Part shown: in pieces, positions 1 through 5,641 of the stretch
Layout of the letters: each line of letters begins with the position of its first letter
How positions within the stretch are numbered: position 1 is the first letter of the stretch
Assembly: GCF_010727605.1 (NCBI RefSeq)
Contig: NZ_AP022568.1
Location: forward strand, 3,286,001-3,350,000
Reading direction: 5' to 3'
DNA: 64,000 bases
Origin: Mycobacterium simiae
Lineage (GTDB): Bacteria; Actinomycetota; Actinomycetes; Mycobacteriales; Mycobacteriaceae
Notes under the pieces: generated by a model
Told to the model about the DNA's origin: nothing
Database searches by the model: none
Seen by the model: the letters and a program-made list of their open reading frames with translations, nothing else
Translations under genes and position numbers: made by a program

Positions 1-675
1 CCGGACCTGCCGGGGTGGCGGCGGGCGATCCAGCTGGCGGTCCGGGAGTGGAACGGCTCGGCGCGTGAGGGCGCGCTGCGGTTGATCTACAGCCGGGGCC
101 GCGAAAGCGGGTCGGCACCGACGGCGTACGTGATGATCACCGACGTTCCCGAACGGGTCGCCGCGGTGCGTCGGGACGGGGTTGCGGCCCTCACGCTGGA
201 TCGGGGTCTGCCCGCGACCGGCGTCGACGGAATGCGCTGGCTGCTGGCCGGCGCCAAAACCTTGTCCTATGCGGTGAACATGGCCGCGCTGCGGCACGCG
301 GCCAGCCAAGGCGCCGGCGATGTCATCTTCGTCAGCACCGACGGCTACATCCTCGAAGGCCCGCGCTCGACGGTGGTGATCGCCGAAACCGGCGCCGACG
401 GTAACCTCTGTCTGCTGACGCCGCCACCCTGGTATCCGATTTTGCGCGGCACCACCCAGCAGGCCCTCTTCGAGGTGGCGCGCAGCAAAGGCTACGACTG
501 TGACTATCGCGCCCTACGCATCGCGGATTTGCATGCCGCTCAAGGGATTTGGCTGGTGTCGAGCATGACTCTGGCGGCTCGCGTGCACACGCTCGACGGT
601 CGCCGACTGCTCCGTTCGCCCATGACCGAGGAATTCGCAGAGCTGGTCGATGCCGCGATCATCAGCGATCGCTGA
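1..675 (+). CDS. Class IV PLP aminotransferase/lyase (aminodeoxychorismate lyase-like), 5' truncated
   Basis: The reading frame is already open at the first base, so the start lies outside the window; 224 residues are visible. Fold type IV PLP enzymes include branched-chain aminotransferases and 4-amino-4-deoxychorismate lyase (PabC). The segment AGAKTLSYAVNMAALR carries the family lysine that holds PLP, and YILEGPRSTVV carries the conserved glutamate, followed by the LRGTTQQALFE cofactor-phosphate region. M. tuberculosis Rv0812 is the positional homologue because the next conserved genes match Rv0813c to Rv0816c. PabC (folate pathway) and amino acid aminotransferase cannot be separated from sequence alone. 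It is transcribed towards the TIR gene, with a strong bidirectional hairpin between them. Confidence 0.85.
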   Translation, partial: PDLPGWRRAIQLAVREWNGSAREGALRLIYSRGRESGSAPTAYVMITDVPERVAAVRRDGVAALTLDRGLPATGVDGMRWLLAGAKTLSYAVNMAALRHAASQGAGDVIFVSTDGYILEGPRSTVVIAETGADGNLCLLTPPPWYPILRGTTQQALFEVARSKGYDCDYRALRIADLHAAQGIWLVSSMTLAARVHTLDGRRLLRSPMTEEFAELVDAAIISDR

Positions 676-915: not shown

Positions 916-2418
916 CTACTGGACCAATTTCGCGGCGATCAGCTCGGCGATCTTGCCCGCCTGGCCGGGCGCGGCGTTCGGGCCGCACACCGATACGTCG
1001 ATGACGTCGGCGCCCTGCGCGTGCAGCACGTGGTGGCAGATCTTGCCGTTGTCGCCCCGGGTTCGCTGTTGCGCGATCCTCGGTACGGTGCCCTCGACTT
1101 GACCGAAGTTCCAGTCGAAGCTGTGACCATTGAGGGTCTCTGTCACCGCTTTTCCGGCGCAGGTTTTCCACTTGTCTGCGGACGCCTGCACGAAGGCGCG
1201 GGCGCTGTCGGGTGAGGAGAACTCCGCGACGGTTTCGATGATCCGGTTCGGCACGTCCTGACCGGGCGTGTGCACAATCAGACCGCTGACCGCGTTGAAG
1301 CCGTCGGCGCTTTGGTACGCCGCCGCCGTGGCGGGTTCGTAGCTGCCCGCGCAATCGGGGTCCGACAGCGTCCACTTGGGGCTACGCAGTTCGTTGATTC
1401 TTTCGCCCGGCACTACGGTTGGGTCACCCACTACCGTGCCGACTTCCGGCGCGCCGACCAACAGGGCGTCCAACTTGCCTGCGCTCGCCGACGAATTCGG
1501 TGCTGACGTTGCGGAATTCGCGCTGCCGGCCCGCGACGCCGACTTGGTCTTGCCGCCCTGTGTGGTGAACACCACCACGACCGCGATGGCGGCGATCACC
1601 GCCACGGCGGCGGCGCCGATGATGAGCAGTCGTTTGTTGGACCCGCCGGCCGCGACGCCGCTGACCGCCGGCGCCGGGACGGCCGCCGCGGGGGATGGAT
1701 CCCCGGGCGTTGCGGTGGGCGGCGCGGGCGCCGGCGCCTTCGGACCCGCGGGCGTCCCGTCTTTCGCCTCGATTTCGGCTAGCACGTTGTCGATCTCGCT
1801 GCGGGTGCGGTACGTAACGTCGTGGCGCAGGCGAAGCATCCGCAACAGTTGGGCGATGTCGCTGCGCGCGCTGGGATCGTCACCGTCCTCGTCGAGCCCG
1901 GAGCGCAACTCGACTAGCAGCGCAAGCTGCTGCTGCGGACTGAGTTCCTTTTCGGCGAGTGTGTTTCCCAGTCGGGTGATGTACCCGAACGGCACCGGCG
2001 GTTCTTCGGGTAGCGGGTCCGGCAGCGGCACCGGCTTGCTACGCAGTCCGTGCACCGCGGTGACCAACTGGATGCCGGCGTCGACCGTCGGCTCGCGGTA
2101 GTCGATGATCTGCAACGCCGCAAGGGGATTCACCCGCATGCTGTCGACGTCGCCGACCCGAACCGGGAGTATCGGACGACCCAGAGCCTGGGCGTACCGC
2201 AACTCGGCCTGGCTCGGCTTGGATTGCAGCCAATTGCTCGACAGCGCAACGATGAAGACCTCGCACTCGCGGATCTGCTCGAGAATCTTGGCCCACCAGG
2301 AGTCACCGCCGCCGAGCTCTTGGTCGAACCACACCTGGTTCTGCCCACGCCGAAGCGCATTGGTCAGGGCGTCGACCTTTGCCCGATCCTGGCTCGAGTA
2401 GCTGATGAACAGCGCCAT
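916..2418 (-). CDS. TIR domain - transmembrane - PknH-type extracellular sensor protein
   Basis: 500 aa. Residues 1-135 are a TIR domain: LFISYSSQD at the first strand, FIVALSSNWLQS at the fourth, and Glu72 in AELRYA at the place of the catalytic glutamate of NAD-cleaving TIR domains. Residues 143-216 are a helical, Q/L-rich segment, then a Pro/Ala linker. One membrane helix spans about 263-286. Residues 315-500 resemble the PknH extracellular sensor domain, with four cysteines (356, 420, 461, 478) able to form two disulfides. The topology would be TIR inside, sensor outside. Start: TAGGAGACTGCG before ATG. It lies 117 bp downstream of the RyR gene on the same strand, probably as one operon. 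NADase activity is inferred from family and the glutamate. I know of no described system with this domain order. Confidence 0.85.
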   Translation of the reverse strand: MALFISYSSQDRAKVDALTNALRRGQNQVWFDQELGGGDSWWAKILEQIRECEVFIVALSSNWLQSKPSQAELRYAQALGRPILPVRVGDVDSMRVNPLAALQIIDYREPTVDAGIQLVTAVHGLRSKPVPLPDPLPEEPPVPFGYITRLGNTLAEKELSPQQQLALLVELRSGLDEDGDDPSARSDIAQLLRMLRLRHDVTYRTRSEIDNVLAEIEAKDGTPAGPKAPAPAPPTATPGDPSPAAAVPAPAVSGVAAGGSNKRLLIIGAAAVAVIAAIAVVVVFTTQGGKTKSASRAGSANSATSAPNSSASAGKLDALLVGAPEVGTVVGDPTVVPGERINELRSPKWTLSDPDCAGSYEPATAAAYQSADGFNAVSGLIVHTPGQDVPNRIIETVAEFSSPDSARAFVQASADKWKTCAGKAVTETLNGHSFDWNFGQVEGTVPRIAQQRTRGDNGKICHHVLHAQGADVIDVSVCGPNAAPGQAGKIAELIAAKLVQ

Positions 2419-2493
2419 CGCAGTCTCCTAGAGTGCAGTGCAGCGAACGAACTGACGCGAAAGCCGGCCTTGCGACCCGTACGCACCTGCGCC

Positions 2494-2504
2494 GATACCG
2501 TATC
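2494..2504 (-). promoter_or_regulatory. Palindrome overlapping a possible -10 upstream of the TIR gene
   Basis: GATACCGTATC is a perfect 11-bp palindrome in the gap between the RyR and TIR genes. On the minus strand it contains TACGGT, a TANNNT -10 match, which would start transcription near 2490. It may allow separate control of the TIR gene; a single short palindrome is weak evidence. Confidence 0.25.
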
Positions 2505-2535
2505 AGTGTTGGGGTGCTCCCGGATGCGCAAATTT

Positions 2536-4872
2536 TCAGCGGATCTCGGCGTAGCGCCGCGCGAACTCGGCACCGGGGACCGGCCATTGCTCACCGTTGC
2601 TTCCCCGGACGATCCAGTCGCCCTCCGCGGCGACGGTGGGACCTTCGAGGGTGTCGACGGTTTCGCCCGGGTAGGCCGGGCGCGCGTGCACCCGTCCCTT
2701 GCGGTGCCACTGCCCGTCACCGGCCGGCTCGTAGGTCTGGCGGAAGATGTCGTCGCGGACCGACCACACCTTGCCGTCCTCGTGGATCGCCCAGTCGCCG
2801 GGGTCGGCGCGCATGGTGTGCCCCGAGTCCGATGTCCATGTCCATGGGGCAGCGCGTTGTTCGGCGGTGACCGTGCCCACCCGGGTAAAGGTCTGCCACA
2901 GCGGGCGGGACCGAAAGCCCAGTTGGCGCAGACTCCACAGCGTGCCCGCCAGACTGCGAACCGCGGCATTCAACAGATTCGGGTCGCTTTCCACTACCGA
3001 CCAGTCGACGAGTTTGTCGTGAATCTTGTGGGAGTCGTCGCGTGGGGAGCCGTATCGCCAGCCGTTGCGGCGGTAGTAGCGACACCAGTCCTCGTGTTCG
3101 GCTTGAGCCATCCGCAGCGCCGAGTCATGGTCGAAGCCCATCCGGTCGAGCTGATCGAAAGGCGCCAATCCGCCCATCTGGCTGCCGGATAACTGGGCGG
3201 GCGGGCTGCCCCAGGTGTTCCAGGTGTGACCAGCGATCTGCTCCACCATCCACAACGCGTTGCGGACCTGGCGTCGGTTAGACCCGCGATAGAACTCGTT
3301 GAGTTCGCTCCACGGCATCGCGGCTGGGGAACGCGGACCGTCCGGGTCGATGGTCGAAACGTAGCGCTCGTGGATGAGCCGTGCCGCGCGCTCCCAGGCG
3401 TCTTGCACCTGACCCTCTTGGGTGTCGAGCACCAGTGAATAGGACTGCAACCGGCCGACGACCTGGATCGAATCGTCGCTGATGCTGGTGTTCAGATCCG
3501 AGGCGTAGATCGGCATTTCGGGAAAACGGGCAGCCAGCCGAGCGACCGTCGTGCCGGCGTGAGCGTCGACGAAGACCACCGCGCTGGTTGCAGGGCCGGC
3601 GTCACCGATCAGCTTGAGCATGGTGGGTATTGTCGGCGCCTCTGCAACGGCGTCGATGGCCGGCCCTTGCGAGGCGAATCCTGCTTGCTGCCGGTGGAAT
3701 TCGTGATCGCGCAAGTACTCCTGGGCGTCTCGCTCGACCAGGGTGAGCGCGGGCAACGCGGACGCGCCGGGCGGCGTGTAGAAGTCACGCTCCAGCACCC
3801 GCTGAGTCAGGTCGGCGCACAGTGCTAAGGTCAATTGCGAAGTGCCGCAAACGAATACACGCTCAGTCCGGCCGGTTGCAATGATGCTGTCCAGCAACCG
3901 CCCGGCGGTCACCTCATATTTTCCGACAACGTCGGCGGCCCAGCGGGTATCCGATCCGCCGAACTGCTGGGCACGCCACGCCTGGGCCAGCCAGGGATCG
4001 TCCATCCGGACGATGAGTGGCAACCGCTGCCGCTGGGCGACCTCGGTGAGCCGACGACTGATCAGATCCAGCCACATCAGATTGACGGCCGGGTCCGGTG
4101 CCATCAGGTAAAGCCGAGACAAGCGGCGCCATAACCGAAGTGACACCAGGGTGGATGGATTGGTGAAATCCGCCAGCACCACCCGGGCGCCCTGCCGGCG
4201 CGCCCGCGCGACCCGGTCGTCGCTGAAACCGGTGATGACGACCAGGGTGCCGCGCCGGTCCAGCGTGCGCCGGACCGCGCTGATCATCGATTGGGTGTCG
4301 TCGTCGAGACCGACGATGACGGTGACCGACTCCGCCCAGTTGGCTCGCAGCCGGTCGACCTGCGACCGGAACACGCCGACGACGACGCCGCCCAATCCGG
4401 TAAAGATCGCCGAAAGTGCTGCGATCCGAGCCAGTTCCAGGCCGACCGGCGTCGGGTTCGGGCAGGTGCGCCCGCCCAGCGAGAAGTCGCCGGTGCCGCC
4501 CTTGACCAGACTGGCGGTTGCCATCAGCGGGGTGAAGAAGGCCGGATGGTTGGTGTCGTGACATCCCCAGTAGGAACTGAGGCCGAGCACCGCGGTGATC
4601 GGAACGAGGGCGGCAATCAGCGTGAACGAAACACCGACCACGCGATGACTGCTGCCCGAGCGAAAGGTCAGCACCGACGCCCAAATCAGCACGGCCACCA
4701 CGATGGTCAGCGTCGGCATCGACCCGGGCCGGCCGAACCACGCCAACGTCCGCGGCAAGACGTCGATGATGGCGGGCCGCAAATCGAGCACCGTCAGATA
4801 GACGATGAGGAGCAGACCCACCCCGGTGACGACCCAGCGCAATACGGGCGAGGGTGTCTTGGTGCGGGGCAT
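2536..4872 (-). CDS. Membrane protein with tandem RCK/TrkA-N-like domains and a RyR domain
   Basis: 778 aa. Hydrophobic segments near residues 11-30, 52-70, 77-100 and 146-168. Between the last two, residues 108-130 look like a short re-entrant helix ending in GGTGDF, loosely reminiscent of a pore loop but without TVGYG. Residues 183-330 read as a Rossmann RCK/TrkA-N domain (VTVIVGLDDD, ARRQGARVVLADFTNPSTL). A second, weaker one follows at about 335-485 (RVFVCGTSQ). Residues 490-655 match the ryanodine receptor repeat (RAARLIHERYV, AEHEDWCRYYRRNGWRYG, KIHDKLVDW). The C-terminus holds two copies of a GDW...W.V...F...Y motif (691-716 and 750-777). ATG with AAGGGAG eight bases upstream was chosen over a frame extending 79 codons further. 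A ligand-gated ion channel or transport regulator is likely. Confidence 0.8.
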   Translation of the reverse strand: MPRTKTPSPVLRWVVTGVGLLLIVYLTVLDLRPAIIDVLPRTLAWFGRPGSMPTLTIVVAVLIWASVLTFRSGSSHRVVGVSFTLIAALVPITAVLGLSSYWGCHDTNHPAFFTPLMATASLVKGGTGDFSLGGRTCPNPTPVGLELARIAALSAIFTGLGGVVVGVFRSQVDRLRANWAESVTVIVGLDDDTQSMISAVRRTLDRRGTLVVITGFSDDRVARARRQGARVVLADFTNPSTLVSLRLWRRLSRLYLMAPDPAVNLMWLDLISRRLTEVAQRQRLPLIVRMDDPWLAQAWRAQQFGGSDTRWAADVVGKYEVTAGRLLDSIIATGRTERVFVCGTSQLTLALCADLTQRVLERDFYTPPGASALPALTLVERDAQEYLRDHEFHRQQAGFASQGPAIDAVAEAPTIPTMLKLIGDAGPATSAVVFVDAHAGTTVARLAARFPEMPIYASDLNTSISDDSIQVVGRLQSYSLVLDTQEGQVQDAWERAARLIHERYVSTIDPDGPRSPAAMPWSELNEFYRGSNRRQVRNALWMVEQIAGHTWNTWGSPPAQLSGSQMGGLAPFDQLDRMGFDHDSALRMAQAEHEDWCRYYRRNGWRYGSPRDDSHKIHDKLVDWSVVESDPNLLNAAVRSLAGTLWSLRQLGFRSRPLWQTFTRVGTVTAEQRAAPWTWTSDSGHTMRADPGDWAIHEDGKVWSVRDDIFRQTYEPAGDGQWHRKGRVHARPAYPGETVDTLEGPTVAAEGDWIVRGSNGEQWPVPGAEFARRYAEIR

Positions 4873-4972: not shown

Positions 4973-5641
4973 CTAGCCGACGAAACGCGACAGCCGCGCC
5001 GACAGGTGTGGAACCAGTCCGCCGTCGGCGTCCACCCGCTCCTCGACGTAGGCCAGGTCCCCGCCTTCGACGATGCCGTAGAGCCGCTTGGCGCCGCCGA
5101 CCAGCACACCAGACCGGCTGCGGGCCAGCGCGTCGGTCACTAATTCCCACGACGACTGGTTACGCGGTCGCCCATAAAACAACTCGACATATCCGGACGA
5201 GTGCGCCAGCAGCAGCTCGATGGCCTGCGATTCGCTGGGGTCGTCGGGGTCGCGGACGAAACGCCAGTAGCCGGTCTCGCGCAGGCCCGGCTGCTGATAA
5301 TTGCCGCTGTCGTCGAGCCGCCAGGATCGGGCTTCCCAATTCAGGTAGTCGCCGCCGTCATGGGAGACCACGATTTGCTGACCGAACCGGTAGTCGCCGT
5401 CGGGTCCACGGCCTTCGCCCTCGCCGCGCCACACGCCGACCAGCGGCAGCAGCGCCAGCAGAGCGTCGTTGAGGTTGGCACCCTTGCGCAGATTCGCCGT
5501 ATCGGCCGGGACGGGCAGGTCGTCGAAGGCCGGGATGTTGCGGGCCGCGGTCACCTTGGCGCGTTCGGCGGCCGCTGCGACGGCGCGGTCACCGGAACCC
5601 GCGGAACCGGCCGGTCCCTCAGGGTCCTCGCCGTAACTCAC
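4973..5641 (-). CDS. FABP-like / nitrobindin-type beta-barrel protein (Rv0813c homologue)
   Basis: 222 aa. After a disordered Ala-rich N-terminus (1-55) the protein has the nitrobindin/THAP4-type barrel signature [12 protein letters not shown], then [11 protein letters not shown] and TGYWRFV. The C-terminal [11 protein letters not shown] contains a histidine where nitrobindins place the haem ligand, so haem or fatty-acid binding are both possible. In M. tuberculosis the positional homologue is described as fatty-acid-binding-protein-like. GTG start overlaps the TGA of the 32-codon gene upstream (GTGA), so the two are translationally coupled. Confidence 0.85.

Follow-up and report, generated by a model that had tools for sequence, protein, structure and literature searches.

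A 64,000-nucleotide stretch of Mycobacterium simiae DNA (contig NZ_AP022568.1; the whole stretch is referred to as the window) carries, on its reverse strand, a gene encoding a membrane protein with two RCK domains and an RyR region (TM-RCK-RCK-RyR; TM, transmembrane). It is followed 117 bp downstream by a gene encoding a TIR domain, a TM helix and a PknH_C-like outer domain (TIR-TM-PknH_C). Both reading frames are open and encode 778 and 500 amino acids, respectively. A preliminary description of the window had placed the two genes on the same strand at this spacing, RyR gene first, between Rv0813c- and Rv0812-like flanks, and the open reading frames (ORFs) and Pfam matches bore this out (Table 1); the names Rv0813c and Rv0812 are those that we presume to apply to the flanking genes.

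The RyR protein is predicted to have four TM helices, the last two of which are separated by a pore-loop-like helix, followed by two RCK domains, a tandem RyR region and two beta repeats. An AlphaFold2 model built with 89 sequences had a mean predicted local distance difference test score (pLDDT) of 84.9, and in a fold search it resembled RCK channels and Repeat12, in agreement with the RCK label of the preliminary description. The pore module (TM helix, pore helix, TM helix) is followed by two RCK domains, as in two-RCK channels, and structural matches to GsuK and MthK start at residues 63-84. Pfam recognized RyR (PF02026) at residues 587-629 with 33 bits (cut-off 27.4); TrkA_N (17.8 bits) and PGDYG (22.2 bits) each scored under their cut-offs. 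The filter-like stretch is flanked by conserved C104 (89/89) and C137 (87/89), and its KGGTGD-type sequence rules out a K+ channel with a classical filter. At the position expected for the glycine-rich nucleotide loop, RCK1 has GLDDDTQS (D190 in 89/89); the missing loop may mean that gating was shifted from an RCK-bound nucleotide to the RyR domain. Ion conduction by this protein may be the output of the system. In five genomes (G046, G084, G195, G200 and G245) the C-terminal beta-repeat part is a separate small gene, and in G046 and G084 genes for TIR-STAND and patatin proteins sit between the two parts of the RyR gene.

The RyR region was also compared with known RyR domains. The family profile matched animal RyRs with E values of 2.8e-9 to 3.1e-6 and the phage RyR domain RyDEP (35tm) with an E value of 1e-5, and Foldseek matched the region to Repeat12 of RyR3 (E 2.8e-4); Repeat12 rows were absent among the 50 VIA-align matches listed. 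Among PDB entries, the family profile scored best with 6uhi (E 2.6e-16), which is named as an RyR1 chimera; the part matched has the sequence of the bacterial protein 3nrt, and 6uhi was therefore not counted as an animal match. RyDEP is reported in a preprint of May 2026 (PMC13232231) to bind and cleave 2'/3'-cyclic ADP-ribose (2'/3'cADPR), and the same source gives six of eight tested phage homologues as binding and none of the eight as cleaving. When equal-length stretches of the two domains were matched (48 positions, apparently ungapped, and chain numbering shifted by one residue), four residues of the window protein fell on the RyDEP site (Table 1). In 187 rows of the long RyR family (181 distinct), H593 is retained in 186, W596 in 187 and H618 in 187. 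The column of the RyDEP catalytic residue D117 (column 635) is Asn in 128 of the 187 rows and Asp in 13. The domain thus appears to retain the residues that bind 2'/3'cADPR in RyDEP. Because these are kept while the RyDEP-type acid is mostly missing, we read the domain as a probable sensor; the mostly-Asn column makes a hydrolase less likely. Repeat 1 has invariant residues of its own, H501 and S531-R534 (89/89 each).

In the TIR protein, residue E72 occupies what we take, from the TIR literature, to be the catalytic position. Glu is found there in 47/47 small TIRs, 25/25 large TIRs and 17/20 others, and catalysis by the TIR domain is predicted. A proline-rich linker precedes the TM helix. The outer domain matched PDB entry 4esq both in sequence (E 3.7e-32) and in Foldseek (E 5.3e-21), consistent with a PknH_C fold, and may serve as a sensor.

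Table 1. Positions of the two genes, their parts and the flanking genes in the window
Feature	Residues	Position	Strand	Basis
RyR-channel gene (P0001)		2536..4872	-	ORF; Pfam; AlphaFold2 model; fold matches
TM region (helices 9-31, 52-72, 78-101; long helix 143-179)	9-179	4336..4848	-	predicted secondary structure; TM assignment by our judgement
Pore-helix-like segment with non-canonical filter-like KGGTGD stretch	113-129	4486..4536	-	model; conservation
RCK1	182-332	3877..4329	-	model; fold matches; conservation
RCK2	338-507	3352..3861	-	model; fold matches
Tandem RyR Repeat12-like (PF02026) region	repeat 1, 490-546; repeat 2, 578-651	2920..3405	-	two matches of purpose-built RyR hidden Markov model (HMM)
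Putative ligand-site residues	H593 (3094-3096), W596 (3085-3087), H618 (3019-3021), N635 (2968-2970)	2968..3096	-	matched with RyDEP H75, W78, H100, D117
Two C-terminal beta repeats, PGDYG-like	660-718 and 721-776	2545..2895	-	Pfam; model
TIR gene (P0002): TIR, helical part, TM, PknH-like outer domain		916..2418	-	ORF; Pfam TIR_2, PknH_C
TIR domain (catalytic-position Glu E72 at 2203-2205)	4-111	2086..2409	-	TIR_2, 79.3 bits
Conserved helical segment after TIR	144-220	1759..1989	-	many invariant columns in 26 sequences; model helices
Single predicted TM helix	about 263-285	1564..1632	-	our judgement from the sequence
PknH_C-like outer domain	313-497	928..1482	-	PF14032, 127.5 bits
Rv0813c-like THAP4 heme-binding-type gene, 100 bp upstream of RyR gene		4973..5641	-	ORF; Pfam
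Rv0812-like aminodeoxychorismate lyase gene, convergent, cut by window start		1..675	+	ORF; Pfam

The two genes are frequently neighbours. In a scan of named genomes, a TIR gene lies immediately downstream of the RyR gene at 27 of 30 loci (not at L026, L028 and L029; at L028, from Gordonia, two TIR-WD40-type genes are found 2.4 kb from the RyR gene). Among 248 genomes of the genus, matches to the RyR protein were found in 99 and matches to the TIR part in 90 before weak ones were dropped. After removal of genomes with weak or partial RyR matches only (G072, G097, G124 and G225) or weak TIR matches only (G002, G057, G061, G134, G139, G166, G200, G212 and G215), 95 and 81 remained, and both genes are present in 72 of the 248. 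The 95 genomes contain 97 RyR places; a second broken RyR set in G078 and additional fragments of genes that had been counted once are left out of this number. A window-type TIR gene is located within 2 kb of the RyR gene at 65/97 places (three of these genomes hold broken copies): 57 pairs are on the same strand, always with the RyR gene first, 8 are divergent and none is convergent. At the remaining 32 places, a TIR gene within 10 kb was found by script at 22, and also at L052 (3.3 kb) and L068 (about 8 kb). Any TIR gene within 10 kb is therefore found at 89/97 RyR places versus about 0.4 expected by chance, a figure calculated from the total of 263 TIR_2 matches in 131 of the 133 TIR_2-bearing genomes. 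TIRs beyond two library scans were found with an HMM of mycobacterial TIRs, which can miss other TIRs. The genomes are related, so the counts are descriptive and p-values would overstate independence.

The RyR gene is constant while its TIR partner varies, being TIR-TM-PknH_C, TIR-nSTAND1-WD40 or TIR-WD40. TIR-nSTAND1-WD40 proteins have about 1400 amino acids (one was scanned with Pfam), and 14 proteins in 13 loci match the first 650 residues; a patatin gene occurs at 9 of the 13 loci, and the single patatin scanned matches phospholipase effectors of CBASS (cyclic-oligonucleotide-based antiphage signalling systems) with 143.6 bits (PADLOC). The TIR-WD40 partner has about 950 amino acids. Small TIRs also adjoin members of a shorter RyR-RCK family, about 576-640 amino acids long and set apart by a deep branch (L070, L072, L077, L079, L080, L081 and L087). 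Partner labels were mapped on trees in which every third canonical locus of L001-L025 was kept; the label 'div' covers any pair on opposite strands, among them the convergent L080, L081 and L087, and TIRs that are broken or cut by a contig end were counted under 'other' or 'none'. The labels changed 24 times in the RyR tree versus 39.3 in shuffles, and 7 times in the small-TIR tree versus 17.7. Fewer changes than in shuffles indicate that the pairs tend toward joint inheritance, with several partner exchanges. Functional linkage of the two genes is well supported, because the window-type pair lies within 2 kb at two-thirds of the RyR places, nearly all have some TIR gene within 10 kb and the labels are clustered in both trees.

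A few loci depart from the common arrangement. At L033 (G151:C627) long and short RyR-RCK genes stand in tandem on one contig. A gene encoding a TIR and, by our reading of the sequence, a DeoR-like part (L064:11722-13128) is found 1.1 kb from an RyR gene. Two extra small TIR-PknH_C copies, at L082:6310-8082 and L084:10081-11562, have no RyR neighbour and stand beside a gene for another PknH_C protein or a Ser/Thr kinase, hinting at kinase-TIR cross-talk via shared outer domains.

We typed 123 genomes at both flanks from the matches listed, counting a genome as RyR-bearing when RyR was on the same contig. The flank-to-flank gap is 2.8-7.5 kb in 50 RyR-bearing genomes. In 70 without RyR, it is at most 400 bp (an empty site) in 24, 0.4-3 kb in 37, 3-20 kb in 7 and larger in 2; the flanks are on different contigs in 3/123. 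Considering the empty sites, the pair was inserted relative to these genomes or lost from them. Single-gene sites are found in G239 (L032, RyR alone) and G151 (L089, TIR alone), and in G078 and G118, genomes of 3.3 Mb, fragments of the two genes adjoin each other and contain internal stops. G078 also holds a second set of broken RyR pieces far from the first with no adjoining TIR pieces, the result of duplication or an assembly effect. The window-type locus is a recurrent chromosomal site; elsewhere, copies accompany a CBASS-like patatin or sit on a plasmid that also bears TIR and DUF4062 genes. A reading by horizontal insertion only was excluded: the pair is found at several loci and in several orientations.

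In the wider class, 51 of 394 genomes matched PF02026, 47 of them over the cut-off. The TIR-poor outside set, described below, indicates that the TIR link is a trait of mycobacteria and some relatives rather than of all RyR-RCK proteins. Ten neighbours scanned in this set include PP2C phosphatases, an EamA transporter, and housekeeping genes such as peptide deformylase and SAM synthetase. At L127, L129, L139, L145 and similar stretches from beyond the mycobacterial set, RyR-RCK proteins of about 590-640 amino acids are encoded beside a PP2C phosphatase and large unknown proteins, or beside housekeeping genes, with no TIR. A plasmid collection yielded one relative, on a mobilizable Rhodococcus plasmid, where the RyR gene, at 36% identity, is oriented divergently to one for a DUF4062 protein (39.7 bits; matches to AAA and nSTAND1 are under cut-off) and is near two annotated TIR genes. 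DUF4062 is described as a TIR-like NADase family in a 2026 preprint (PMC13174449). As for phages, an origin of the window RyR domain from them was set aside: there was no convincing match among the best 30 of 45 records (best E 0.04). For a short-family RyR domain, 233 phage records matched with E values of 1 or less, the best being 1e-8. Many phages carry RyR-domain genes (e.g. Pseudomonas phages such as F116); these are mostly annotated as hypothetical and are candidate signal sponges or hydrolases.

With moderate confidence, we propose that the two genes form one signalling unit in which the TIR product binds the RyR domain and opens the channel. We infer five steps. The PknH-like outer domain, or the WD40/STAND part elsewhere, would sense an envelope or surface event and cluster the TIRs. 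The TIR would then turn NAD+ into an ADP-ribose (ADPR)-type signal, probably 2'- or 3'-cyclic ADPR, and the Repeat12-like RyR domain would bind that signal; conserved residues back both steps. Thereupon the RCK ring would shift and the pore open, giving an ion flux as stress or anti-phage output. The recurrent chromosomal pair may serve in envelope-stress signalling, or the versions with STAND parts or on plasmids may act against phages. In the preliminary description the pair had been called one unit, in which a TIR activated through the PknH-like domain makes an NAD-derived product that gates or binds the RyR protein; this view is partly supported, by the linkage of the genes, a TIR predicted to be catalytic and the putative ligand residues.

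Several observations weigh against this reading. No TIR was found at 8/97 RyR places in the DNA inspected (2-10 kb on each side), namely L026, L031, L032, L033, L037, L048, L050 and L069, of which L033 and L048 are on short contigs and L069 is a partial RyR gene. Conversely, 6 of the 32 small TIRs in the tree, one of them on a 4.8-kb contig, lack an RyR gene within 2 kb. Among 40 further RyR stretches (L121-L160), a clear TIR is present only at L121, L136 and L148, as called by the HMM, and L136 belongs to the mycobacterial set; L125 has a weak 22-bit TIR match, and L157 has a TIR match with the RyR gene not called. Pairing of homologues thus holds in mycobacteria, whereas outside them the genes mostly occur apart, as the preliminary description had considered unfavourable to its claim. 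RyR domains in such TIR-less stretches retain H593 in 19/19, W596 in 19/19 and H618 in 16/19 of the rows counted, so retention of these residues is not special to TIR-linked proteins, and by these alignments a tie between the ligand site and a TIR is not to be expected everywhere. The short RyR family, which is TIR-linked, has Thr or Asp at H618 in 9/11 rows. Column 635 is less sure: a local alignment gave N in 18, R in 13 and D in 9 of 57 rows, and 12 of these rows resemble repeat 1. As to the channel part, GsuK matches that take in the TM region have a root-mean-square deviation of about 12 A, and a canonical K+ selectivity filter is absent from the protein, the KGGTGD-type segment being variable after G125. 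In the TIR domain, Pro68 sits at the Trp position four residues before the Glu, and the TIR half of the TIR-protein model is poor (pLDDT <60) and was not used for active-site geometry.

The same Pro68, in place of the usual Trp, would suit a TIR that contacts the RyR-RCK protein or other TIRs as a scaffold and sends no signal, with Ca2+, ATP or NAD(H) acting on the RCK domains to control the channel. GsuK RCK channels are indeed reported to answer ADP and NAD+ (PMC3510474). We nevertheless consider this unlikely: Glu is at the catalytic position in 72/72 TIRs of the small and large classes, RCK1 has no glycine loop, and the TIR proteins found as partners vary in their other parts, a pattern more in keeping with a diffusible signal than with a fixed interface. 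The membrane protein might instead be an off-switch that limits TIR signalling, its RyR domain hydrolysing or soaking up the TIR product. Cleavage by RyDEP, binding without cleavage by most of its tested phage homologues (PMC13232231) and the retained H593 (RyDEP H75) would agree with this, but the D117 position is mostly Asn (in a column that is less sure), and a sponge or hydrolase has no need of a channel-like TM part and two RCK domains; an off-switch is therefore rather improbable. Linkage from another cause, such as a shared hotspot or co-transfer of unrelated defence or stress genes with no joint action, gains something from the patatin genes at many large-TIR loci and from the non-mycobacterial RyR proteins mostly without TIR neighbours, yet we regard it as unlikely in view of the close pairs with their fixed order on the same strand, the pairing at several unrelated loci, the broken copies side by side in two 3.3-Mb genomes and the clustered labels in both trees.

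The proposed TIR-to-RyR signalling unit resembles Thoeris in that a TIR gene, with Glu at the catalytic position (E72), lies beside a gene with a predicted NAD-derivative-binding domain, in a two-gene logic with variable TIR sensors, and by this analogy the pair may work like Thoeris. The Thoeris effector ThsA is a SIR2-SLOG protein. The partner here, in contrast, is RCK-channel-like with a Repeat12-like domain, a predicted TM helix and a PknH-like outer domain are joined to the TIR, and the locus is a recurrent chromosomal site. The window TIR scored 14-20 bits with ThsB models and 31 bits with PDC-S66 in PADLOC, and the scanned RyR proteins (window, L080 and L042) had no match in PADLOC-DB 2.0.0 (2023). 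We do not class the pair as Thoeris, because its effector matches no known Thoeris effector model and no activity is known.

Each part of the pair has known relatives. Like RyDEP (PDB 35TM), the window protein has a PF02026 domain with the counterparts of H75, W78 and H100 in matched stretches of equal length; unlike it, the protein is host-encoded, with tandem repeats in one chain, RCK and TM parts, and mostly Asn for the Asp. A tandem Repeat12-type region on an ion-channel-like protein is shared with animal RyRs, whereas the pore, the size and the gating ring (RCK instead of the RyR shell) differ, and common descent of the channel part is not implied. GsuK, BK/Slo1 and CASTOR/DMI1 have the same order of TM helix, pore-like helix, TM helix and tandem RCK domains in one chain, but the window protein differs in its non-canonical filter, RCK1 without glycine loop and added RyR and beta repeats. 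The outer domain is of the type found in mycobacterial PknH (4esq), with TIR replacing the Ser/Thr kinase.

Among the records listed in literature searches, judged by title and the opening of the abstract, none described the gene pair or a TIR-signal-gated ion channel, and an earlier description may exist. Burroughs et al., writing in NAR in 2015, are said to have discussed RyR and TIR domains in nucleotide-centred systems. Tentatively, the pair could represent a complete bacterial cADPR-to-RyR circuit with exchangeable TIR sensors, a new class of TIR effector in immunity or stress and a prokaryotic precedent for direct binding of cADPR by Repeat12 of animal RyRs; mycobacteriophage RyDEP may have evolved to erase the signal of this circuit. 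If the proposed reading is true, the genus gains a TIR-linked membrane system of which both genes occur in 72/248 genomes, and bacteria may offer a counterpart to the way in which cyclic ADP-ribose is held, though this is disputed, to control calcium channels of animals. The RyR protein would also be a small purifiable channel for testing whether a Repeat12-like domain lets cADPR isomers gate a channel directly. Direct cADPR gating of animal RyRs is still open, and the RyDEP preprint states that its structure supports future studies (PMC13232231). The pair would further be a candidate host target of the mycobacteriophage enzyme RyDEP, whose authors remark that tools for easy Thoeris study in mycobacteria do not exist (PMC13232231).

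A promoter scan of the locus found none. A single terminator-like site was located within the RyR gene, in a scan that is uninformative for mycobacteria. Among the 30 named loci, the nearest to the window locus is that of M. sherrisii (L023), with 93% protein identity (best segment) and 89.9% DNA identity over 4971 bases. In the records of M. genavense (L021) and M. sherrisii, both genes are in pieces in different frames, reflecting decay or sequencing error.

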